IMG/VR virus record: IMGVR_UViG_3300032265_000080 | Coordinates: 1-29,297 of that record | DNA from: a virus | Reading direction: 5' to 3' (one strand) | Length of the DNA stretch: 29,297 bases | Part shown: one piece after another, positions 1 through 10,642 of the stretch | Numbering within the stretch: position 1 is the stretch's first letter | Layout of the letters: the number at the start of each line of letters is the position of its first letter | Notes under the pieces: model-generated | What the model saw: the letters and a program-made list of their open reading frames with translations, nothing else | Database searches by the model: none | Told to the model about the DNA's origin: nothing | Translations under genes and position numbers: made by a program

Positions 1-1503
1 ACTGGGCTTCAATCTGCAACCTCATATACTTTTGCTGTATCTGCGGCTAACTCTTCTGGCACATTAACTTCTGCATCTACCTCTGCTATTACTGCTACTA
101 CAGTCCCACAAGCGCCAACTATTGGTACTCCCACTGTAGCCACTGGTCAGTCTTATACTGGTAATGCCAACGTCTCAGTGCCCTTTACAGCAGGTGCAAC
201 AGGCGGAAAATCTGTTTCTACCTACACAGTAACTTCTTCTTCTGGAAATACTGCCACAGGTTCTTCATCGCCTATTGCTGTATCAGATGTAGTAGGAACT
301 GCCCGTACCTATACCGTTACTGGAACAAATGCAAACGGCACATCAACAGCATCTTCTGCCTCTGCATCAACTACCCCTTCTTCAGTACCTCAAGCCCCAA
401 CAATCGGCACCGCTACACCAGGTTCTGCTGGAAGCGGCCAAGTATCTGTTGCGTTTACTGCGGGTGCAACTGGTGGCTCGGCAATTACGACATACACCGC
501 TACTTCTTCTCCTGGAGGTATTACAGGAACAGGTTCTTCAAGTCCAATTACTGTATCTGGATTAACATCAGGAACTGCTTACACGTTTACAGTTACCGCT
601 ACAAATGCAAATGGCACTTCTGCAGCATCCGCTGCCTCTAACTCCGCAACACCTCCAGTCCCACTTCCTATCGTTAGTGGTGGCACCCTTACTTCTGATG
701 CAACTTATTACTATCGCACATTTACTGGTAATGGAACATTTGCGGTTACTACAGCCAACCTCACATGTGACATCCTTACTATTGCAGGTGGTGGTTCTGG
801 TTCTACTGGAACAACCAACGGTGGTGGCGCTGGTGCGGGTGGTCTTTTGTACTCAGCAAGTCAGACAGTATCAGCAGGAAGTTCCTGGGCAATTGTAATT
901 GGTGCTGGAGGTGCAGGAGTAGTTCCAGCAGGTAATGGTACTCACGGTCTTCCTGGAAATAACACAACGATAAACTCTACAAGTTATATTGCTATTGCTG
1001 GAGGTCGAGGCTCTAACGGCTCAACACTTACGGCTCCTGGTGGCAACGGTGGTTCAGGCGGTGGTGGTGGTGGAAGTCAATCTGGAGGAACTGGAACTAC
1101 AGGTCAAGGAAATAATGGTGGTGCAGGAACCACACAGAATGGCCCTGGCGGTGGAGGTGGCGGTGGAGGAGCAGGCGGAGCAGGAAGCAATGGCTTTGTA
1201 GATAGTGGATCCTATTACGGGGGAGCAGGAGGATCTGCGAGTAGTTCTTACTCAACTTGGGCATCTGCAACAACTACAGGAGTAAGCGGTGCTTACGCTG
1301 GCGGTGGCGGTGGCTATGGTACAGACAACGGTAGCGCAGGAGGTGGAGGCGGTGCTGGTTCAGGTTCCTATGGTACAGGCGGAAATGCAACTGCAAACAC
1401 AGGCTCTGGTGGTGGTGGTCAGTATGCTGCTAGCGGCACCAAAGGCGCTGGTGGATCAGGACTTGTTATTGTTCGTTACACACGCTCACAGGTAGGTGGA
1501 TGA
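1..1503 (+). CDS. Tail fibre/adhesin, FN3 repeats plus glycine-rich domain (5' end cut off)
   Basis: The reading frame is open from the first base, so the N-terminus lies outside the window; 500 residues are visible. It starts inside one fibronectin-III-like module, has two complete modules (about residues 35-128 and 129-219, each with a GTAYTFTVTATN-type strand), then a C-terminal glycine-rich region from about residue 222 with many GGGGG runs. Glycine-rich domains of this kind are known at the tips of phage fibres and adhesins, where polyglycine helices pack and variable loops bind the host surface. I infer a virion fibre or host-recognition protein. It ends in a TGA that overlaps the ATG of the next gene, which looks like its dedicated accessory gene. 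The second cassette at 1832-4152 repeats this layout. Confidence 0.8.
   Translation, partial: TGLQSATSYTFAVSAANSSGTLTSASTSAITATTVPQAPTIGTPTVATGQSYTGNANVSVPFTAGATGGKSVSTYTVTSSSGNTATGSSSPIAVSDVVGTARTYTVTGTNANGTSTASSASASTTPSSVPQAPTIGTATPGSAGSGQVSVAFTAGATGGSAITTYTATSSPGGITGTGSSSPITVSGLTSGTAYTFTVTATNANGTSAASAASNSATPPVPLPIVSGGTLTSDATYYYRTFTGNGTFAVTTANLTCDILTIAGGGSGSTGTTNGGGAGAGGLLYSASQTVSAGSSWAIVIGAGGAGVVPAGNGTHGLPGNNTTINSTSYIAIAGGRGSNGSTLTAPGGNGGSGGGGGGSQSGGTGTTGQGNNGGAGTTQNGPGGGGGGGGAGGAGSNGFVDSGSYYGGAGGSASSSYSTWASATTTGVSGAYAGGGGGYGTDNGSAGGGGGAGSGSYGTGGNATANTGSGGGGQYAASGTKGAGGSGLVIVRYTRSQVGG
502..606 (+). repeat. FN3 segment shared with second fibre gene (copy 1)
   Basis: This encodes 35 residues (TSSPGG to TFTVTATN) that match the segment at 2837-2941 in 32 of 35 positions. 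In both genes it is the last FN3 module before the glycine-rich domain. The DNA differs mainly at third codon positions. Confidence 0.8.
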
Positions 1504-1835
1504 TGGCTCATTGGGCAGAGATTGATAAAAATAATATTGTTGTACGTGTAACTGTTGGCTCTAATGAAGACTACGATGAAGGCTACCAATGGCTCATTGA
1601 TAATCTCGGTGGCACTTGGATTAAAACTTCCTACAACGGAAACATCCGTAAAAACTATGCTGGTATTGGTTTTACCTATGATGAAGGACGGGATGCATTT
1701 ATCCCACCAAAGCCTTTTGCTTCTTGGGTACTGGTAGAAGAAACCTGCATTTGGGAAGCACCCACACCAATGCCTACAGACGGTAAGTTTTATGACTGGA
1801 ATGAGCCATCTTTGTCTTGGAAGGAAGTTAAGTGA
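1500..1835 (+). CDS. Fibre-associated small protein, IRKNYAGIG family (copy 1)
   Basis: This 111-residue protein is clearly paralogous to the one at 3811-4152. Both share a core of SYN-x-x-IRKNYAGIG, YDE-x-RD-x-F, P-x-x-F-x-SW, EETC-x-WEAP-x-P and WNE-x-x-LSW. I recognise this family from aquatic phages, where it sits beside fibre genes, but I know no biochemical function for it. Since each copy directly follows a fibre gene with overlapping codons (ATGA here), the likely role is a fibre assembly chaperone or a small fibre-attached protein. An ATG at 1503 is an alternative start one codon later. Many conserved Trp and Tyr residues would also fit a small binding domain. Confidence 0.75.
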   Translation: MMAHWAEIDKNNIVVRVTVGSNEDYDEGYQWLIDNLGGTWIKTSYNGNIRKNYAGIGFTYDEGRDAFIPPKPFASWVLVEETCIWEAPTPMPTDGKFYDWNEPSLSWKEVK

Positions 1836-3811
1836 GCATTCGTCACGCTAGTGAAGAAGATGTAGACGGTAACACAACCGCTATACCTGATGTACCTGAT
1901 GCACCTGCCTCTGCCTCTAGCGCAGATGTGGGTACTAGCCGTGCCTATAACAATGGCGCAGCCACAGTCTCTTTCACAGCAGCCGCTACTGGCGGTACTC
2001 CAACATCGTATACAGCCACAACAACTCCTGGCTCATTTACAGCCACAGGTGCGGGATCGCCCCTAACAGTTACAGGTCTTGCTACAGGAACCACATATTC
2101 CATTGCTGTGACTTCAACTAATGCAACCGCTACCAGCGGTAACTCAGCATCTGCTGGGTCTATCACGGCTACTAGCGTACCTGCTACCCCTTCTGCCCCT
2201 ACTGCTACAGATACCCCATCAGGTCGTGCTTACAACAATGGTCAGGCTTCTGTAGCCTTCACAGCACCAGCAACTGGCGGTAAATCTATCTCTTCTTACA
2301 CAGTAACATCAAGCCCAGGTTCTTTTACTGCTTCTGGTTCTTCTTCTCCTCTTACTGTTACTGGTCTACAGTCAGCAACTGCTTATACCTACACAGTCAC
2401 TGCTACAAATGCTAATGGTACTTCTAGCGCATCTTCTGCATCGTCTGCAGTAACTGCTACAACAGTTCCACAAGCGCCTACTTTAAGCAGCGTCTCTAAT
2501 GGAGGAGAAAAGATTGCCTCAGTAGCGTTCAGTTCAAACGCAACAGGTGGTTCGGCTATCTCAAGTTTTACAGCAACATCATCTTCTGGACGTTCTGCCT
2601 CTGGTAGTTCAAGCCCTCTTTCTATCACAGAAACCGCTGCAGGAACGTACACATACACAGTGACAGCAACAAATGCTAATGGTACCTCTAGTGCTTCTAA
2701 CACTTCAAGTTCTTACGTGTTCAATGTGCCTTCAACACCTACAATTGGAACAGCAACTGCAGGCAATGGAAGTGCATCTATTACATTTACTGGAAGTAGC
2801 ACCAATAACAACTCCAGTATTACTGGCTATACGATGACATCCTCACCAGGAGGATTTACAGGAACAGGGTCATCAAGCCCTATTACCGTTTCAGGACTAT
2901 CTAATGGAACTGCTTATACATTTACAGTCACCGCAACCAATGGTTATGGAACCTCTTCCGCATCTTCAGCCTCTAATTCAGTGACCCCAGTAGCACCTAA
3001 AACATCCTCAGTTAACTACCTTGTCGTTGCGGGAGGTGGTGGAACCTCTCACATCCCAGGTGGTGGTGCGGGAGGCATGCTTACAGGGACCTACTCAGTA
3101 TCAGGAGGTAGCGCTTACACAGTAACTGTTGGAGCAGGGGGTGCGGCGGGCATTAACGCTACATGTGCAACCGCAGCAACGGTTGGGGGCAATAGCGTCT
3201 TTGCTTCTATCACCACATATGGCGGTGGAAAAAGCGGTAATGGTGGTGGGGGCACCAATGGAGGTAGCGGCGCTGGCAGTACCAGCAGTCTTTATAAATA
3301 TACTGGAGTTGTTGGTCAAGGCAACAGTGGCGGAAAAATCCTTTGCTCAACTGGTTCAGGCGGTTATGCTGGCGGTGGTGGCGGTGCTGGCGCAGGCGGT
3401 GCGGACATAAACCAAGGTAGCCCAGGACCTGGCGGTGCGGGTGCGTACTATGCAATCACTGGTGCTTATTATGCTGGCGGAGGCGGTGGTGGTCGTTGTA
3501 ATGGTGGTTGCGGCGGTGTTGGCGGCGGTGGCAGAGCCTATAGCCCTTCTAGAAGCCCTAACTGTTCCTCAAGCGGCGCTGCAAATAGCGGCGGCGGCGC
3601 TGGTGGTGAAAGGCGAGTAGGCGCTGGCGGTGTGGGCGCATGCGGTAGCGGCACCTACGGAAGAAACGGTGGTTCTGGAGTGGTGGTTCTTTCTTACCCA
3701 AGTTCTTACCCAACTCTTACTGCTATCAGCGGTCTTGGTTATTCCTACGCTGATAATGGAACAAACAAAATCTACACATTTACTTCTGGCTCAGGCACGG
3801 TGACAATCTAA
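1832..3811 (+). CDS. Tail fibre/adhesin with four FN3 repeats and glycine-rich tip
   Basis: This 659-residue protein starts at a GTG that overlaps the preceding stop (GTGA). A short N-terminal segment is followed by four fibronectin-III-like modules (about residues 20-117, 118-213, 214-300 and 301-389). A glycine-rich domain then opens with NYLVVAGGGG near residue 395, a typical phage fibre glycine-rich entry strand. The glycine-rich part contains several cysteines, including GRCNGGCGG, unlike the first fibre. The C-terminus ends in a short Ser/Thr/Tyr-rich segment. The modules resemble each other and those of the gene at 1-1503, so the two fibres arose by duplication and module shuffling. 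The role as a host-recognition or surface adhesin is inferred from domain content and position. Confidence 0.8.
   Translation: MSIRHASEEDVDGNTTAIPDVPDAPASASSADVGTSRAYNNGAATVSFTAAATGGTPTSYTATTTPGSFTATGAGSPLTVTGLATGTTYSIAVTSTNATATSGNSASAGSITATSVPATPSAPTATDTPSGRAYNNGQASVAFTAPATGGKSISSYTVTSSPGSFTASGSSSPLTVTGLQSATAYTYTVTATNANGTSSASSASSAVTATTVPQAPTLSSVSNGGEKIASVAFSSNATGGSAISSFTATSSSGRSASGSSSPLSITETAAGTYTYTVTATNANGTSSASNTSSSYVFNVPSTPTIGTATAGNGSASITFTGSSTNNNSSITGYTMTSSPGGFTGTGSSSPITVSGLSNGTAYTFTVTATNGYGTSSASSASNSVTPVAPKTSSVNYLVVAGGGGTSHIPGGGAGGMLTGTYSVSGGSAYTVTVGAGGAAGINATCATAATVGGNSVFASITTYGGGKSGNGGGGTNGGSGAGSTSSLYKYTGVVGQGNSGGKILCSTGSGGYAGGGGGAGAGGADINQGSPGPGGAGAYYAITGAYYAGGGGGGRCNGGCGGVGGGGRAYSPSRSPNCSSSGAANSGGGAGGERRVGAGGVGACGSGTYGRNGGSGVVVLSYPSSYPTLTAISGLGYSYADNGTNKIYTFTSGSGTVTI
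2837..2941 (+). repeat. FN3 segment shared with first fibre gene (copy 2)
   Basis: This is the counterpart of 502-606: 32 of 35 encoded residues are identical. It also sits directly before the glycine-rich domain and is a possible site for recombination between the two fibre genes. Confidence 0.8.
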
Positions 3812-4210: not shown

Positions 4211-4909
4211 ATGGAGATAATTTTTACTGACACGCATAACCCTGATGGCGTATTAGAAAAACCAAAACCAGCAAGCGAGTATATCCCTCAGTGGTACAAG
4301 GACGCTAAATCGTATATGTCGCTAGATGGTAAAAAAGTTCCCACACTAGACGGTAGTCCGATGGCAACCATCAAGCGTTGCATGCCTTTATGGGACATGA
4401 TGACGGCTGGATACATCATGGAAACCCCCTATGACATCTACATAAGACAAACTTCTGATGGTCCGTTTTTCCAATGGGGCGCTAATGATGCTCTTGCTTT
4501 TCAGCATGTAGATCAGTTTCAAAGCCACCCCTACTCCAGGGACATTAACTATGCGGTAAGAATCAATATACCTTGGTCAATCAAAACTCCAAAGGGTTGG
4601 TCCATAATGGTGATGGAGCCACAACACCATGAGCCTTCCCCAATAACCTGCGCTTCTGGAATCGTGGATACTGACGAATTTTCTATCCCTTTTAATATGT
4701 TCCTTAAACTTCGTGATCCAAAGTTTGAAGGAATGATTCCTGCGGGAACCCCTTTCTTACAGATCATTCCCTTTAAAAGAGAGTCTTGGACATCTTCAAT
4801 AGGTGGGGAAAAAGAACGCAAAAAGTTTGATAAAGATATGCATATATTTAGTCGTGTTTTTTTTGACCGCTATAAGAAATTTTGGTGGGTAAAGAAGGAG
4901 TATAAGTAA
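4211..4909 (+). CDS. DUF6065-like phage protein of unknown function
   Basis: This 232-residue protein has a strong GGAGG site ten bases before the ATG. Its landmarks are EYIPQWYKD near residue 24, TIKRCMPLWDMMTAGYI near 53, the pair WSIKTPKGWSI near 123, SGIVDTDEFSIPFN near 150 and GMIPAGTPFLQIIPFKRE near 180. This pattern matches my memory of the DUF6065 family, which occurs in phages and some bacteria and has no established function. The order of motifs is complete and the length is usual, so the gene looks intact. It stands between the fibre cassettes and the head-tail joining genes, which says little about its role. Confidence 0.65.
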   Translation: MEIIFTDTHNPDGVLEKPKPASEYIPQWYKDAKSYMSLDGKKVPTLDGSPMATIKRCMPLWDMMTAGYIMETPYDIYIRQTSDGPFFQWGANDALAFQHVDQFQSHPYSRDINYAVRINIPWSIKTPKGWSIMVMEPQHHEPSPITCASGIVDTDEFSIPFNMFLKLRDPKFEGMIPAGTPFLQIIPFKRESWTSSIGGEKERKKFDKDMHIFSRVFFDRYKKFWWVKKEYK

Positions 4910-4948: not shown

Positions 4949-5488
4949 ATGCGTGGAAGTAAAGTACAGGGACGATTTAAGATCGACTTTGAGCACCTCT
5001 CTATCGATGAGGGAATCGTCGATGAACTCCGTGACCCTGTAGGTTCTACCGTCAACTGGTACCTCTGGGATGCAGCCTTCTTTGCCGCTAACCCTGATCA
5101 TGTCGTAGACGATATCTACGATGTCTCCTCCCAAGACGGTGGCAAAGGCCGTAAGTGGTTAGACCCATTTGACGTCCCAGTCATCATGGCTCAACAGTTG
5201 CGTGGTACCAACATCATGAACGAGCGTGGCTTCTACACCGTAGATACCCTACGCCTTGTCATCGCCGTTGCCGATGTTCAGCGCCTACTCCCAGCCTTGA
5301 TTGACAACCCTAACGTTCACATCAAGGACCGCATCGTCTTCCAGGGCGAAGTCTTTGTACCTACCCGTGTCCTTCCTCGTGGCCGCTATGCCAACAACTA
5401 CGCTGTTGTCACACTTGACTGCAACCAGTTGAACACTGAAGAACTTGTTAACGACCCTCAGTTTCAGGCTTACGTTGACGTTGCTTAG
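4949..5488 (+). CDS. Probable head-closure/stopper-like connector protein
   Basis: This 179-residue protein has no motif that names it outright. The second half looks beta-rich, with DRIVFQGEVFVPTRVLPRGR near residues 127-146 and then YAVVTLDCNQ; a barrel with such a G-x-x-(F/Y)-V-x-x-x-V-x-P-x-G loop is typical of SPP1 gp16-like head-closure proteins. Gene order supports this: a neck protein (7415-7732), a tail terminator (7729-8406) and the sheath follow downstream. I infer a head-tail joining role with moderate confidence; another small structural protein is possible. AGAGGA at 4932 is a plausible ribosome-binding site. Confidence 0.5.
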   Translation: MRGSKVQGRFKIDFEHLSIDEGIVDELRDPVGSTVNWYLWDAAFFAANPDHVVDDIYDVSSQDGGKGRKWLDPFDVPVIMAQQLRGTNIMNERGFYTVDTLRLVIAVADVQRLLPALIDNPNVHIKDRIVFQGEVFVPTRVLPRGRYANNYAVVTLDCNQLNTEELVNDPQFQAYVDVA

Positions 5489-5742: not shown

Positions 5743-5901
5743 ATGGCTAAGAAGGCTGCCCCTAAAAAGGGCAAAGTAGAGAAGATCATGAAAGAGTATA
5801 CCGAAGGCAAACTTCACTCTGGGTCAAAGAAAGGCCCTGTAGTTACTTCTCGAAAGCAAGCCTTGGCTATTGGTTACAGCGAAGCACGGAAGACCAAGTA
5901 A
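5743..5901 (+). CDS. DUF6496-like basic mini-protein
   Basis: This 52-residue protein begins MAKKAAPKKGKVEKIMKEY and continues with GKLHSGSKKGPVV, then RKQALAIGYSEA. The GKLHSGSKKGPVV-x-x-x-x-QA-x-AI core matches the small DUF6496 family as I remember it, found in phages and bacteria, function unknown. GAAAGG precedes the ATG by about ten bases. It is the first of a run of tiny lysine-rich genes. The product could bind DNA or be a head component, but nothing in the sequence proves it. Confidence 0.7.
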   Translation: MAKKAAPKKGKVEKIMKEYTEGKLHSGSKKGPVVTSRKQALAIGYSEARKTK

Positions 5902-6111
5902 GTGGCGTTGTCTAAACTAGAACCAGCGCCACTTGCTTACCCTAATGGAGGTGGAATAGCAGCCATGGCAAGTAAGAAGCCACAGTCTCAACGTCTTGAA
6001 CTTGAGGCTCTAGAAGCCAAGCACAAGGTAGACATCGCTAAACTCAAAGAGAAGCATGCCAAAGCCAATGCTCCAAAGCCTATGAGTACGGGGGCAAAAA
6101 AGAATGGCTAA
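5902..6111 (+). CDS. Small lysine-rich protein with a helical middle
   Basis: The 69-residue reading starts at a GTG directly after the preceding stop. A second start, ATG at 5965, has a better ribosome-binding site (GGAGG at 5947) and would give 48 residues beginning MASKKPQSQRLELEAL; the choice is open. The stretch from about residue 27 to 54, with LELEALEAKHKVDIAKLKEK, should form a charged amphipathic helix or short coiled coil. No family recognised. The last eight bases overlap the next gene at a junction that recurs at the end of that gene. Confidence 0.6.
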   Translation: MALSKLEPAPLAYPNGGGIAAMASKKPQSQRLELEALEAKHKVDIAKLKEKHAKANAPKPMSTGAKKNG

Positions 6112-6114
6112 GAC
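6097..6114 (+). repeat. Gene-junction repeat, copy 1
   Basis: The 18-mer AAAAAGAATGGCTAAGAC recurs exactly at 6278-6295. In both places it encodes the end of one gene (Lys-Lys-Asn-Gly-stop) and the start of the next (Met-Ala-Lys) in another frame. Confidence 0.85.
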
Positions 6115-6292
6115 CATCAAGATCAAGGGCGAAGGCCATACAATTAAGAAGAACAAAAAGGGCGATGTCATTGTTGACCATGCAGGTGACAAGGGCAAGT
6201 ACGACAAGATCAACCTAACCAAGAAGGCTGGCGCCAAGACCATCAAGGCTGGTGTCAAGGCAACTAAAGATTGGCATAAAAAGAATGGCTAA
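6104..6292 (+). CDS. Lysine-rich mini-protein (62 aa)
   Basis: It has 18 lysines in 62 residues: a start of MAKTIKIKGEGHTIKKNKKG, a middle with DVIVDHAGDKGKYDKINLTKK, and a Lys/Ala/Gly-rich end. The N-terminal alternation of basic and hydrophobic residues could form a small beta hairpin. The ATG lies inside the last codons of the upstream gene, with an eight-base overlap, so translation is probably coupled. No family recognised. Overall charge suggests nucleic-acid contact or a virion location, by inference only. Confidence 0.65.
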   Translation: MAKTIKIKGEGHTIKKNKKGDVIVDHAGDKGKYDKINLTKKAGAKTIKAGVKATKDWHKKNG

Positions 6293-6295
6293 GAC
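6278..6295 (+). repeat. Gene-junction repeat, copy 2
   Basis: Exact copy of 6097-6114, again spanning the stop of one mini-gene and the ATG of the next with the same eight-base overlap. Confidence 0.85.
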
Positions 6296-6545
6296 TGAAG
6301 CGTGGACACGCAAAGAGGGTAAGAACTCTAAAGGTGGCCTCAACGAGAAGGGACGCAAGTCCTACGAAAGAGCCCATCCTGGTTCTGATCTCAAGGCTCC
6401 AAGCAAAGACCACGGCAACAAACGCCATAAAGCATTTTGTAAAAGAATGAAGGGCATGAAGGCTAAAAACACCTCAGCCAAAACTGCTCGTGATCCTAAT
6501 AGCCGTATCAACAAATCATTGAGAGCGTGGGACTGTGGCTGCTAA
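6285..6545 (+). CDS. DUF6321-like basic mini-protein
   Basis: This 86-residue protein starts at the ATG at 6285, in the repeated junction; a GTG at 6252 in the same frame would add 11 residues but fits the family worse. It shows EAWTRKEGKNSKGGLNEKGR, then SYER-x-x-PGSDLKAPSK, KRHKAFCKRMKGMK and a C-terminal SRINKSLRAWDCGC. This set matches my memory of the DUF6321 family of phage proteins, function unknown. The conserved WTRKEGK, FC-x-RM and INK-x-LR-x-W segments are all present, so it looks intact. The three C-terminal-half cysteines (FC, DC, GC) could bind metal. The end overlaps the next GTG start by 11 bases. Confidence 0.7.
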   Translation: MAKTEAWTRKEGKNSKGGLNEKGRKSYERAHPGSDLKAPSKDHGNKRHKAFCKRMKGMKAKNTSAKTARDPNSRINKSLRAWDCGC

Positions 6546-6681
6546 GAAGAATGACCCTTGCTGGGATGGATACACCCAGGTCGGTATGAAGATGAAGAAT
6601 GGCAAGAAGGTACCAAACTGTGTTCCAGATCGTTCTGGAAGAATCCCAAAATCAAAACCTAAGAAGAAAGTGAGCAAGTAA
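6535..6681 (+). CDS. Small CW-x-GY-x-QVGMK mini-protein
   Basis: This 48-residue gene is too short for most ORF filters. It starts at GTG (GTGGCTGCTAAG) inside the end of the preceding gene. The protein has DPCWDGYTQVGMKMKNGKK followed by VPNCVP, a motif I have met in phage structural and assembly proteins, often as a short domain of larger polypeptides; here it stands alone. The two cysteines at residues 9 and 29 are part of the motif. The lysine-rich tail resembles its neighbours. Function unknown. Confidence 0.65.
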   Translation: MAAKKNDPCWDGYTQVGMKMKNGKKVPNCVPDRSGRIPKSKPKKKVSK

Positions 6682-6786
6682 ATGTGTGCTAAGTGCGGAT
6701 GTGGATGTAAGGCTGGTAAGCCAGCAAAGGGATGTAAGTGCACCTGTGCTACTTGCAAGGCTGCTCGTACTAAGAAGGCCAAATAA
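6682..6786 (+). CDS. Eight-cysteine metallothionein-like peptide (34 aa)
   Basis: This 34-residue gene begins directly after the preceding stop. It has eight cysteines at residues 2, 5, 7, 9, 18, 20, 22 and 25, giving C-x2-C-x-C-x-C, a gap of eight residues, then C-x-C-x-C-x2-C. The two halves are mirror images in spacing. There is no aromatic residue or His, and most other residues are Lys, Ala or Gly, which fits a metallothionein-type metal cluster. The C-terminus is Lys-rich like the neighbouring mini-proteins. Known metallothioneins bind Zn, Cd or Cu through thiolate clusters; binding here is inferred from the pattern. One-base TAATG overlap with the next gene and conserved layout support real translation. 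Confidence 0.65.
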   Translation: MCAKCGCGCKAGKPAKGCKCTCATCKAARTKKAK

Positions 6787-6944
6787 TGGCTGACGGTCTT
6801 TCCCCTAAGCAGAAGAAGATTGCCTCTATGGGTGGCAACAAGAAGAAGATCGATGCCGCAGACTTTGCCGCTCTCCGTAAGGGCAAGAAGATGTCATCAG
6901 CCAAGAACCCTAAGATTGTTACCAATCGTAAGAAGGGCATGTAA
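6786..6944 (+). CDS. Basic mini-protein with ADF-x-ALRKGKK motif
   Basis: This 52-residue protein reads MADGLSPKQKKIASMGGNKK, then DAADFAALRKGKKM, and ends in NRKKGM. The pattern KQKKIA-x-x-x, I-x-A-x-DF-x-ALR resembles a small phage family I remember from aquatic myoviruses, without known function. It starts in a TAATG overlap with the cysteine-rich gene and ends in the same way at the next gene, so all three are probably translated in a coupled manner. Confidence 0.65.
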   Translation: MADGLSPKQKKIASMGGNKKKIDAADFAALRKGKKMSSAKNPKIVTNRKKGM

Positions 6945-7138
6945 TGGCTAAGAAGAAGTCGGATGCTGCTCAGGATGCTGCAGTCATGAAAAACATGACT
7001 CCAAAGCAGATGCTCGCCTTTAAGAAGGGCGATAAGAAGATGGACGAGAATAAGGCCATGTCTCGTTCCGAAGATAAAGCGGCTGATAAAACATTAGCCA
7101 AGAAGGTCAAGAAGAAGTTCCCCGCTAAAAAGAAGTAA
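6944..7138 (+). CDS. Lysine-rich mini-protein (64 aa), last of the array
   Basis: It contains 20 lysines in 64 residues, with MTPKQMLAFKKGDKKMDE in the middle and a C-terminal KKVKKKFPAKKK. The middle resembles the previous gene (PKQ..., A-F-x-KGDKK), which hints at a common origin. No family recognised. A strong terminator starts seven bases after the stop, so this is the last gene of the transcription unit. The charge fits DNA binding or packing in the head, by inference only. Confidence 0.65.
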   Translation: MAKKKSDAAQDAAVMKNMTPKQMLAFKKGDKKMDENKAMSRSEDKAADKTLAKKVKKKFPAKKK

Positions 7139-7144
7139 GAGTTG

Positions 7145-7170
7145 GCCCCACGAAAGTGGGGCTTTTTCTT
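7145..7170 (+). terminator. Intrinsic terminator after the mini-gene array
   Basis: GCCCCAC-gaaa-GTGGGGC is a perfect seven-base-pair GC-rich stem with a stable GNRA-type GAAA loop, followed at once by TTTTTCTTT. It is the only clear intrinsic terminator in the window and separates the head/mini-gene unit from the tail unit. Confidence 0.92.
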
Positions 7171-7418: not shown

Positions 7419-7732
7419 ACAAAGGCCACGTAAACACCGCAATCACAAAAGCAAGCCACGATACATCTCGTTTGCTTTCAGCACACCTACGCACAGAAGC
7501 CCGCAAGAGCGGATGGCCTGAGCACATAGTTCGTACTATGCATGTCTCTTATGGCAAAGATGGATTTACAAACCACGTCCACCCAGAGCATCGTGCCGCT
7601 GCCATGGACCTTGAGTACGGCACATCCCACTCTCAACCTACGGCTGCTATTCGCCGTTTCAAGAACCGCACACAGCAAGCAGAGTCTTTCTTTAACAAGC
7701 GCCTAGGAGCACATCTAGGGAGCATGCGATGA
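7415..7732 (+). CDS. HK97 gp10-like neck/tail-completion protein
   Basis: This 105-residue protein has a helical N-terminus (residues 8-31) and a C-terminal LEYGTSHSQPTAAIRRF segment. The (V/L)E-(F/Y)-GT-x-x-x-x-P-x-x-x-x-R-P/F motif is the hallmark of HK97 gp10-type neck proteins, in which this loop precedes the last helix. The many histidines in the middle are unusual. Position fits: it directly precedes a probable tail terminator and the sheath, with GTGA and ATGA overlaps on each side. I infer a role at the head-tail joint. Confidence 0.65.
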   Translation: MNKGHVNTAITKASHDTSRLLSAHLRTEARKSGWPEHIVRTMHVSYGKDGFTNHVHPEHRAAAMDLEYGTSHSQPTAAIRRFKNRTQQAESFFNKRLGAHLGSMR

Positions 7733-8406
7733 CCTTCTTACTCTCCGAAGATAAAGCCCTACGTGATCTTCTTAAGGGCATGGTTGTTACAGACCAAAAA
7801 ACAGTAAACCCTACAACAGGTGCAGCAACTCGCCCTGTCAAAGTTTACTTTGGGCAGCCTGACCAAGAACTTCGTGATCAAACCTACCCATACATCACCA
7901 TTGATATGGTAGATCTTTCTGAAGATACTCAGCGTGCTATGCGTGGCAAGGTTAAGCCTATATATATTGCTGATCCACCTAACATTACTCCCGCAACAGA
8001 GTTTGATCCTGATATCCATGGCTGGGAAATGGATTACCCAATCCCAGTAAACATTGATTACCAAGTAACAACCTATGCCCGTCAGCCACGACATGATCGT
8101 GAAATACTGGCTCAGTTGCTATACACAAAGATTCCATTGCGGTTTGCCGTACTGGAGACTGACGACAATACGGTACGTCGTCTGGACGTTCTTGATATCT
8201 CCAAAAGAGACGTTACAGAACAAGGAAAGCGTATGTTCTTAAACGCTATAACGGTGCGGGTCTCTAGCGAGATCGTTCCGTCTCAATTCTACGTAATGTA
8301 CAAAGCGTTGCAAGTATCCGTTACAGGAACAGATGGCGGCTTAGTCCGAGGAGGGACACAGCCAAAATTTACTCCTATCGATTCGTTCATTCATACCGCA
8401 CAATAA
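7729..8406 (+). CDS. Probable tail terminator protein
   Basis: This 225-residue protein starts in an ATGA overlap with the gp10-like gene and stands immediately before the sheath gene. It has FGQPDQELRDQTYPYITIDM near residues 41-60, a segment resembling the strands of tail terminator or minor tail proteins of lambda gpU / T4 gp15 type, then YQVTTYARQPRHDREILAQL near 112-131, where such proteins carry a Y-x-V-x-x-x-x-(R/K)-x-x-x-(E/D)-x-x-L-x-x-x-L helix entry. The family is inferred from this pattern and gene order; length is a little above usual. The product would cap the tail tube and sheath. Confidence 0.6.
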   Translation: MTFLLSEDKALRDLLKGMVVTDQKTVNPTTGAATRPVKVYFGQPDQELRDQTYPYITIDMVDLSEDTQRAMRGKVKPIYIADPPNITPATEFDPDIHGWEMDYPIPVNIDYQVTTYARQPRHDREILAQLLYTKIPLRFAVLETDDNTVRRLDVLDISKRDVTEQGKRMFLNAITVRVSSEIVPSQFYVMYKALQVSVTGTDGGLVRGGTQPKFTPIDSFIHTAQ

Positions 8407-8437: not shown

Positions 8438-9973
8438 ATGGCCTATGGTCGTCCAGGCGTTTACATCAGTGAGCGTCTATTAACTGCACCAATCGCTGCT
8501 GGCAACAATGCCGCTGCTGCTGGTGCTGTTGTTGCTCCGTTTGCTCACGGTCCAGAGACCGTAACAAAGGTTAACTCATGGTATGAGTTTACTCAAGCAT
8601 TCGGCGGTTACAACGCTGCATTTCCAGCCACCTTCCAGGTTGGCGCATTCTTTACAAATGGCGGACGTGAACTCTACGTAAAGCGTCTTCTTGCTGATGA
8701 TGCAGTTGCTGCATCTATTGATATCGCTACTTCTGGCAACGTAACAGTCGCAACTGTTACCGCAAAAAGTGCTGGAGCAGACGGTAACAAACTCCGTGTT
8801 GCAGTAACAGCGGGCTCAGTATCCTCAACCTACACACTCTCTGTTTACAAAGAAGCAGGAGTTGCAGACACTATTGTTAGCAACCGTGTAACTGCAGGGG
8901 CTGCTGATGACATCCTTCTTGAGCGTTATGAGAATGTTGTCTTTGATGACCCAACATCAAGTGATTTTGCTGAAACAGTAGTCAACATCGTATCTCCAAA
9001 CATTGCACTCAGCAGCAGTGCTTCAGGAATTCCTGCATTAGCAATCTATCCGCTTTACAACGGATCAGACGGAACTACCCCTGTTGCTACTGACTACACA
9101 GCATACAAGGGTGGATCATCTTCTGTATTTGCTGATTTCTCAACAGTCAACCGTCCATTGGTAATCTTCCTTCCAGCATTGCACACGCTTGCTTCTGGCA
9201 AGGTCTCAGTGGTTGATGCTGCATCATCGTGGTCTGAGTCAAATGGCGGCTTTGTTGTCGTAGATACACCAGCCAATCAGACAGTTGCTCAGGCACTATC
9301 GTTTGCTGGTTCATTCACAGACACAAGCAACGCTGCTGTCTACCACCCAAATGTCTACATTCCTGATCCAGTTGGCCGTAGTTCAACTTCCCTTCGCAAG
9401 ATCGGTCCATCAGGATCAATTGCAGGTCTCTACCTAGCAAATGATTCTCGTATCGGTTCTGGCGTTTGGAAGGCTCCAGCAGGACTTAATGCTCCTGTTC
9501 TTGGCGCCGTTGCAACAGAGACAGCATTTACCTCTGCTGATCTTGATAGCATGAACTCAAACACAGCCCCTGTAAACCCTATTCGTCAAGTGCCAGGTGC
9601 AGGTATCGTCGTTATGGGCGCTCGTACCTTGCTACAAGACGGAACAGCAAACAAGTATGTCAACATGCGTCGCTCTTTGATCTACATCAAGCAGCGCCTC
9701 AAGGACATCACAGAGTTTGCAATCTTTGAGAACAACGATGAGCGTCTGTGGGAACGTCTAAACACAGTCATCTCAACATTCTTGAATGATTACCGTAACC
9801 AAGGCGGTCTTCGTGGTGCCACTGCTTCTGCTGCTTACTTTGTAAAGGTAGACGGCCAGAACAACACACCTGTAACAATCGCCAACGGTGAAGTCCATAT
9901 TCAAGTAGGAGTTGCTCTTGAGTATCCTGCTGAATTCATCGTCATTGACCTCAGCCAAAAGACGCTGAACTAA
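8438..9973 (+). CDS. Contractile tail sheath protein
   Basis: This 511-residue protein opens with YGRPGVYISE, the usual sheath N-terminus, followed by FAHGPETVTKVNSWYEFTQAFGG, and ends with the conserved sheath domain: GIVVMGARTLL near residue 388, RRSLIYIKQRL near 410, and F-x-x-DYRNQGGLRG near 450, finishing in HIQVGVALEYPAEFIVIDL. TAGGAGA precedes the ATG. The whole length is usual for phage sheaths of this type. It polymerises around the tail tube and contracts to drive the tube into the host. The next gene encodes the tube. Confidence 0.97.
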   Translation: MAYGRPGVYISERLLTAPIAAGNNAAAAGAVVAPFAHGPETVTKVNSWYEFTQAFGGYNAAFPATFQVGAFFTNGGRELYVKRLLADDAVAASIDIATSGNVTVATVTAKSAGADGNKLRVAVTAGSVSSTYTLSVYKEAGVADTIVSNRVTAGAADDILLERYENVVFDDPTSSDFAETVVNIVSPNIALSSSASGIPALAIYPLYNGSDGTTPVATDYTAYKGGSSSVFADFSTVNRPLVIFLPALHTLASGKVSVVDAASSWSESNGGFVVVDTPANQTVAQALSFAGSFTDTSNAAVYHPNVYIPDPVGRSSTSLRKIGPSGSIAGLYLANDSRIGSGVWKAPAGLNAPVLGAVATETAFTSADLDSMNSNTAPVNPIRQVPGAGIVVMGARTLLQDGTANKYVNMRRSLIYIKQRLKDITEFAIFENNDERLWERLNTVISTFLNDYRNQGGLRGATASAAYFVKVDGQNNTPVTIANGEVHIQVGVALEYPAEFIVIDLSQKTLN

Positions 9974-9991: not shown

Positions 9992-10642
9992 ATGGCAACA
10001 ATCATCAATAATCGTTCGAACCTAACGACCGATCCACTACGTAACTTTAGGTTCTTGGTTACGTTCACACCTCTAGACTCAACCAACACAACCATGTCGG
10101 CTTTGTCTAGCGCAACAATGGGGTTCACCTCGGTATCAGGACTATCAGTTGCTACTGATGCTATCCCTTACCGTGAAGGTGGCTACAACACCACTGTTCA
10201 CCAGATCCCTGGTCAGACAACATTCACACCGTTGACCCTTCAGCGTGGTGTAATGCTCGGCACAAACCGTAACTGGGAGTGGATGCGTAACATGTTCGCT
10301 ACAGTTGGCGGCGGCGGATCTACCCGTGGTGTTGATAAGAACTTCCGTTGCAACATTGACATCAAAGTTCTTGCTCACCCAATCCCTGCAGCAGGTTCAG
10401 AAGATGCAACACAGGTCCCAGTAGATAGCCGCATCACAACAACAGCATCAACTGATGTTGTAGCGATGCAGTTCCGTGTCTACAACGCATGGCCAACCGC
10501 TGTTGCTTACTCAGACCTCAACGCAGGTGACAACGCTCTACTCGTAGAGCAGATGACCCTCGTGCATGAAGGTTTCAACATCGCATGGGGTAACTCAAAT
10601 AGCATCGCTACAAGTGCAGATCCAGCAGTCCTAGGCGCATAA
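9992..10642 (+). CDS. Tail tube protein (T4 gp19-like)
   Basis: This 216-residue protein shows the gp19-family layout: DPLRNFRFLVTF at residues 14-25, GFTSVSGLSVATDAIPYREGG near 44-65, PGQTTFTPLTLQRGV near 73, and an NWEWM helix near 95. AAGGAG lies upstream of the ATG. It stands just after the sheath gene, as in most contractile tails. A longer middle section (residues 130-170) than in T4 gp19 is probably a surface loop. The product stacks in hexameric rings to form the inner tube. Confidence 0.95.
   Translation: MATIINNRSNLTTDPLRNFRFLVTFTPLDSTNTTMSALSSATMGFTSVSGLSVATDAIPYREGGYNTTVHQIPGQTTFTPLTLQRGVMLGTNRNWEWMRNMFATVGGGGSTRGVDKNFRCNIDIKVLAHPIPAAGSEDATQVPVDSRITTTASTDVVAMQFRVYNAWPTAVAYSDLNAGDNALLVEQMTLVHEGFNIAWGNSNSIATSADPAVLGA

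Follow-up and report, generated by a model that had tools for sequence, protein, structure and literature searches.

The window analyzed here, a virus record of 29,297 bases, encodes a contractile tail (sheath, T4 gp19-like tube, and baseplate) and, upstream of the tail genes, a 34-residue peptide carrying eight cysteines. What could so small and thiol-rich a product do beside the particle genes of a phage? The gene lies at positions 6682 to 6786 on the plus strand, starts with ATG, and is translated as MCAKCGCGCKAGKPAKGCKCTCATCKAARTKKAK. Its cysteines stand at residues 2, 5, 7, 9, 18, 20, 22, and 25, so the spacing (steps of 3-2-2-9-2-2-3) and the mirror layout described in the initial annotation were right; the window holds a single copy of this pattern, which appeared in 0 of 100 shuffles. 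The N-terminal segment M-C-x2-C-G-C (6682–6702, plus strand), which holds Cys2, Cys5, and Cys7 and is referred to below as the clasp, is HypB-like by sequence comparison, and the cysteine pattern defines a mirror half, C18-x-C20-x-C22-x2-C25, at 6733–6756 on the same strand. The peptide is 24% cysteine, lacks Trp, Tyr, and Phe, and has a pI of 9.6 and a net charge of about +9 at pH 7, which is compatible with a predicted protamine-like role in condensing DNA. Given eight cysteines in 34 residues and no aromatics, the earlier description of the peptide as metallothionein-like, thiol-rich, and probably metal-binding still applies. An AlphaFold model of the 8-Cys family had a mean pLDDT of 82.5 and a pTM of 0.49, with a C-terminal helix at residues 23–33, and a Foldseek search with this model found no match in the PDB. 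Profile searches of Pfam, PHROGs, NCBIfam, and PDB sequences also returned no match to the peptide, in keeping with the earlier remark that no named phage family was known to have this exact symmetry.

Homologues were sought by scanning viral contigs for an ATG followed by eight Cys codons, with the linker free to vary from 4 to 14 residues and all other residues unconstrained. At least 119 stretches were found; among the 120 matches listed, 106 had the exact spacing of the window and were open in frame, and the remaining 14 had other lengths and were mostly poly-Cys or frame-broken. Despite the freedom allowed, the linker was 8 residues long in all 106 members among the matches listed, suggesting that both halves of the 8-Cys form act together. 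These 106 members comprise 68 distinct 25-residue cores, in which, among the matches listed, Gly17 was invariant (68/68) even though the scan had left this position free, Lys19 was present in 62, and Gly6 in 60. Every Cys column uses both Cys codons, and dN/dS calculated without the Cys codons was 0.10–0.13 for pairs with 70–100% nucleotide identity (0.10–0.14 once Gly17 was also excluded). The lack of any homologue in related genomes, which the initial annotation had named as grounds for dropping its reading, is thus clearly not the case, as more than 120 homologues were found. Together, these sequence comparisons indicate that the 8-Cys peptides are a real viral family that is widespread and unnamed.

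A cellular origin of the family was considered and, within the genomes sampled, rejected. A scan of cell-genome contigs gave at least 116 stretches; those listed were all artefacts, such as poly-Cys frames from TGC repeats, and had no case of exactly eight Cys in an open frame, an outcome that taken alone carries no weight. The sequence profile A1 of the family found no member in 988 sampled bacterial genomes, of which 396 share the phylum of an actinomycete MAG, 300 the order of a Rubrivivax MAG, and 292 the phylum of a Synechococcus MAG. It likewise found none in 8 other genomes, and it recovered a single copy in each of the 31 phage records used as a positive control. Against 50,697 phage records, a megablast search with window positions 1–25000 gave no match, and neither did tblastn searches with the 8-Cys peptide or with four related proteins described below (the L047 fusion and the 3-Cys/SPKQ, 3-Cys/QDAK, and 3-Cys/KHGMKTLAAAN proteins), for all of which the low-complexity filter may mask such sequences. 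Among named phages, the best-placed tail sheaths were those of Streptomyces phages (34–45% identity); in BRock, LuckySocke, and pSt2308, three of the nearest by this measure, the 8-Cys motif was absent near the sheath and an ATG-MCxxCGC start was absent from the whole record. A literature search, whose coverage took in few subscription papers, found no paper on a phage metallothionein, nothing on DUF6321, and nothing relevant on a CXXCGC motif in phage. The 8-Cys peptide is, then, a new unnamed family, and the type of metal site it resembles is already known.

The gene is one of eight basic mini-ORFs (pI 9.6–10.7) that span 5743–7138 on the plus strand. They begin with a DUF6496 (PF20106) protein (5743–5901; Pfam E 1.9e-11), a protein of 48 aa from its ATG (5965–6111; a GTG start at 5902 is also possible), and a 62-aa protein (6104–6292) with homologues beside 41 of the 106 family loci listed. 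A DUF6321 (PF19846) protein with a C-terminal CGC follows (6285–6545; Pfam E 5.1e-20), and then a protein with a CWxGY...VPNCVP motif (6535–6681; phrog_9737, E 1.1e-10, unknown function), whose stop codon directly adjoins the start of the 8-Cys gene. That gene in turn overlaps by one base the start of the next, which encodes an SPKQ...ADFxAL module (6786–6944) and is followed by a gene for a KSD/QDAK module (6944–7138); both modules lack the clasp here, and the former has clasp-bearing homologues elsewhere. The cluster is closed by an intrinsic-terminator-like stem-loop at 7144–7163 on the plus strand (8 pairs, 6 of them G-C, with a T-rich tail), a kind of site whose number in the region is not above chance. 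The tail sheath (8438–9973, plus strand; phrog_23, E 5.6e-44), which marks the phage type, and the tail tube (9992–10642) lie downstream, confirming the placement of the peptide within a run of basic mini-proteins that ends before the tail genes. The ORFs at 4949, 7415, and 7729 matched no family, so the label "head-tail junction" for this region derives solely from gene order.

Among the 106 loci listed, many of them on short contigs, homologues of ORF 7415 were found near the motif in 65, ORF 7729 in 63, the sheath in 59, ORF 6944 in 51, ORF 6786 in 50, ORF 4949 in 44, DUF6321 in 36, and DUF6496 in 34. Some loci without a sheath (for example, L012, L013, L033, and L044) keep DUF6496 or DUF6321, and the 8-Cys motif of L012 and L075 has a major head protein encoded 0.8–2.7 kb upstream. 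DUF6321 occurred in 16 of 30 records with the 8-Cys family (15 over the cut-off), whereas the family occurred in none of 30 records picked as close DUF6321 relatives (30 of 80 loci); DUF6321 is therefore a frequent neighbor and not an obligate partner. DUF6321-like segments (n = 114) mostly end in Cys (AWNC in 67, AWDC in 10, KWDC in 7, KWNC in 4, and DCGC in 4), and this conserved C-terminal end is seen at window positions 6285–6545 and in the viral homologues. Farther upstream, positions 4211–4909 encode a DUF6065 protein (Pfam E 4.9e-8; phrog_7084, E 2.7e-46), a gene that also precedes the mini-gene cluster in some relatives. Positions 178–3811 include two long proteins that carry repeats resembling TATNANGTSSAS and are rich in Gly at their ends. 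Behind each comes a short protein of about 110 residues (ORFs 1500 and 3811), an arrangement like a duplicated pair of fibre and partner.

A sample drawn without regard to cysteines allowed the mirror layout to be weighed against the clasp. Loci were collected by homology to the tail-region protein of ORF 7729–8406, and 14 of the 61 obtained were dropped for having less than 1,400 bases upstream; the 47 retained partly overlap the contigs of the 8-Cys family scan. An MCxxCGC mini-protein was present in 39 of the 47: the 8-Cys form in 8, a 7-Cys form in 8, a 6-Cys form in 13, and only a 3-Cys form in 10. Of the eight loci without the clasp, five carried an MCNGxC... ORF and one an MCKCGKCADC... 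ORF. The 61 loci together contained 63 ATG-MCxxCGC ORFs, whereas a Markov model predicted 0.1 (20 simulations, largest value 2). In all viral loci examined, we counted 172 distinct clasp proteins (97 8-Cys, 61 3-Cys, 9 6-Cys, and 5 7-Cys); one 8-Cys and one 3-Cys protein occurred together in 54 loci, and two 8-Cys proteins never shared a locus. The clasp precedes at least four different modules, the exchangeable parts being SPKQ...ADFKAL, QDAK/KSD, KHGxKTLAAAN, an EF-hand-like loop, or a bare Lys-rich tail. The EF-hand-like loop belongs to a variant of the SPKQ module (DADKDGKLEGSDF; Pfam E 0.019, below the cut-off; L410, L408, L420, L070, and others), and some mini-proteins may pair the Cys clasp with a Ca site. 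The mirror symmetry stressed in the initial annotation is strictly kept within the 8-Cys form, but the 7-, 6-, and 3-Cys forms that occupy its place in the mini-gene cluster of sister phages keep only M-C-x2-C-G-C. What these forms share, as read from the sequences, is therefore the N-terminal clasp; the mirror half represents one way of elaborating on it.

In the window peptide the 8-Cys motif begins at residue 2, and we looked for internal or differently started copies of it by searching for those preceded by a base other than G. This search was complete (58 stretches); 14 were real members, and all had ATC (nine: L323, L328, L336, L351, L358, L361, L371, L373, and L374) or ATT (five: L337, L340, L341, L362, and L364) directly before Cys2. 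The same complete scan found no internal copy of the motif after codons ending in A, C, or T. For codons ending in G, the searches covered ATG, GTG, and TTG, and the search for GTG and TTG starts found one member, with GTG. In the nine ATC cases, the stretch from the preceding stop to Cys2 has no in-frame ATG, GTG, or TTG; the five ATT members do have an in-frame ATG, 14 codons upstream, where it overlaps the previous gene. The codons before Cys2 are candidate natural start codons (AUC and AUU), spread over at least four lineages, and the 8-Cys motif may be obliged to begin at residue 2. As a separate observation, three pairs of loci (L328 and L061, L323 and L062, L358 and L039) point to cassette exchange near the start codon: L328 and L061 are 98.6% identical from just past the start onward with no match upstream, whereas L358 and L039 match at 88% upstream, reaching to the start.

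We favor, with moderate confidence and leaving aside any location in the particle, the reading that the peptide is metallothionein-like and built on a HypB-type N-terminal metal clasp, because the spacing is fixed, dN/dS is low, the motif is placed at the N terminus, the clasp occurs in 39 of 47 loci and on at least four modules, its register is that of HypB, and the gene has basic neighbors and a late-type position. Metal binding as such is likely; that the site is HypB-like and uses the N-terminal amine is somewhat probable. Cys2, Cys5, and Cys7 together with a free N-terminal amine would hold one metal ion, which would be Ni(II) as in HypB, with Zn(II) or Cu(I) also possible in the phage peptide. 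Cys9 and the mirror half would supply five more thiolates for a second site or a small metallothionein-like cluster, and the Lys-rich linker and tail would make the molecule a polycation. An amine ligand needs a free N terminus, which fits the strict placement of the motif at residue 2. The metallothionein idea of the initial annotation thus keeps part of its support, with the N-terminal clasp taking the place of the mirror as its center.

A peptide made late and left unpackaged in the cytoplasm, acting as an ordinary metallothionein or metal chaperone that buffers or passes on Zn, Cu, or Ni without need of its N-terminal amine, would account for the cysteine content, the CxC and CxxC units, the lack of aromatics, and the single copy in each of 31 records. 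We consider it unlikely, since it leaves unexplained both the constant start of the motif at residue 2 and the steady company of basic mini-proteins near particle genes, and since the 3-Cys relatives contain too little Cys to be metallothioneins. A redox role is still more doubtful. Disulfides would then join the mini-proteins to one another or to the head after the particle leaves the reducing cell, and metals would be incidental, a scheme to which the mostly Cys-terminated DUF6321 homologues (114 segments) and the likeness of thiol-bearing polycations to protamines lend some weight; however, the exact spacing, the invariant Gly17, and the CGC turns better fit a metal site, and DUF6321 is missing from many family loci (present in 16 of 30 records).

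Fusions of the 8-Cys domain bear on where the peptide might act. In 18 distinct proteins the domain is joined to the module seen in window ORF 6944, and in 2 to that of ORF 6786; in L041 and L007 it forms the N terminus of a 203- or 352-residue protein with a major head protein nearby. The L047 fusion lies directly downstream of a gene that matches head maturation protease families in its C-terminal part, with a better match to a family named DNA methyltransferase. N-terminal 8-Cys domains were seen on proteins of 151–352 residues in eleven loci (L007, L019, L027, L032, L034, L041, L047, L080, L091, L103, and L110); these proteins have Gly/Ala-rich stretches, and several are encoded near a major head protein or a head-protease-like gene. 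A VEK/VSK motif recurs in the long fusions and was considered as a possible protease site, but its recurrence proves nothing. Gene position and fusions allow a tentative placement in the phage particle: the peptide would be made alongside other Lys-rich mini-proteins encoded in the particle-gene region and would possibly be carried in or around the head. The late-type position with particle genes, and the large fusion proteins encoded beside the major head protein, make it highly improbable that the peptide acts on the host by binding a metalloprotein, RNA polymerase, or a protein that delivers metal (a HypB partner, for instance), although mimicry of the HypB N terminus would offer a route to Ni-delivery partners. 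That the gene is a chance ORF or a functionless translational by-product, as its 34 codons and lack of Pfam, PHROGs, or NCBIfam matches might suggest, is already refuted by conservation (more than 100 homologues, fixed spacing, low dN/dS, and a start adjoining the previous stop) and has a negligible likelihood.

The metal-clasp reading has its own points of doubt. Met1 may be cleaved off ahead of Cys2, in which case the amine ligand would be a different one; the resemblance to HypB could reflect convergence, both being thiolate sites of a generic kind; and the activity could lie in the long Lys tails instead. A bolder extension, which we think improbable, is a metal-bridged protamine: shuffling Lys-rich mini-proteins with HypB-like clasps (3–8 Cys) would be tied together, or to a capsid partner, by metal, their polycationic parts would condense or stabilize packaged DNA, and the metal load would enter the next host with the genome. 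In more general terms, these sequences suggest that many phages may produce small basic metal-binding proteins beside their particle genes. Small phage genes are mostly unannotated, and here a set of them shares a recognizable chemical signature, found throughout most of the sampled loci of one phage group and in other phage types as well. If the peptide binds Ni, Zn, or Cu with HypB-like affinity and sits in the particle, metals would join what phages carry or control, and a way would open into the cluster to which the unexplained families DUF6496 and DUF6321 belong, the latter present in 510 phage records.

How does the peptide compare with known systems? DUF6496 and DUF6321 proteins share its gene cluster and Lys-rich composition but differ in sequence, and DUF6321 is common in marine phages without the 8-Cys peptide (0 of 30 records). 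Protamines are small polycations with thiols able to bridge chains on DNA; the phage mini-proteins differ in using Lys rather than Arg, have no homology to them, and are putative DNA binders. Like metallothioneins, the peptide is very short, rich in Cys arranged in CxC and CxxC units, and free of aromatics. In contrast, profile searches of Pfam, NCBIfam, and PDB sequences link it to no described family of metallothioneins, and its mirror layout with a fixed 8-residue linker, its strong net positive charge, and its 3-Cys relatives set it apart.

The closest likeness is to HypB. According to PMC7055735, the high-affinity Ni(II) site of E. coli HypB consists of Cys2, Cys5, Cys7, and the N-terminal amine and binds with sub-picomolar affinity, and an N-terminal CXXCGC Ni(II) site is unique to E. 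coli HypB in the wording of this review. In our sample of 60 genomes from a single bacterial order, an MC..CGC start was present in all 19 HypB loci over the family cut-off when two scripts were combined (16 by the first and 14 by the second, with L448, L449, and L457 found by the second alone); within this one order, the start is broader than the review states. At the extreme N terminus, the phage proteins match Met1, Cys2, Cys5, Gly6, and Cys7 of HypB in register, sometimes with a letter-identical start (MCTTCGC), and residues 1–7 of the window peptide have the M-C-x2-C-G-C of HypB (TIGR00073). HypB, however, is a GTPase of more than 200 residues, whereas the phage proteins are polycations of 26–90 residues or N termini of head-region proteins, the 8-Cys form carries five further Cys, and the 34-residue window peptide has no GTPase domain and no NCBIfam match. 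Since it lacks the sequence relation of a metallothionein and the GTPase domain of HypB, we filed it under neither, and the seven-residue resemblance supports the view that the phage clasp may work like the HypB site and not that the two share a common descent.
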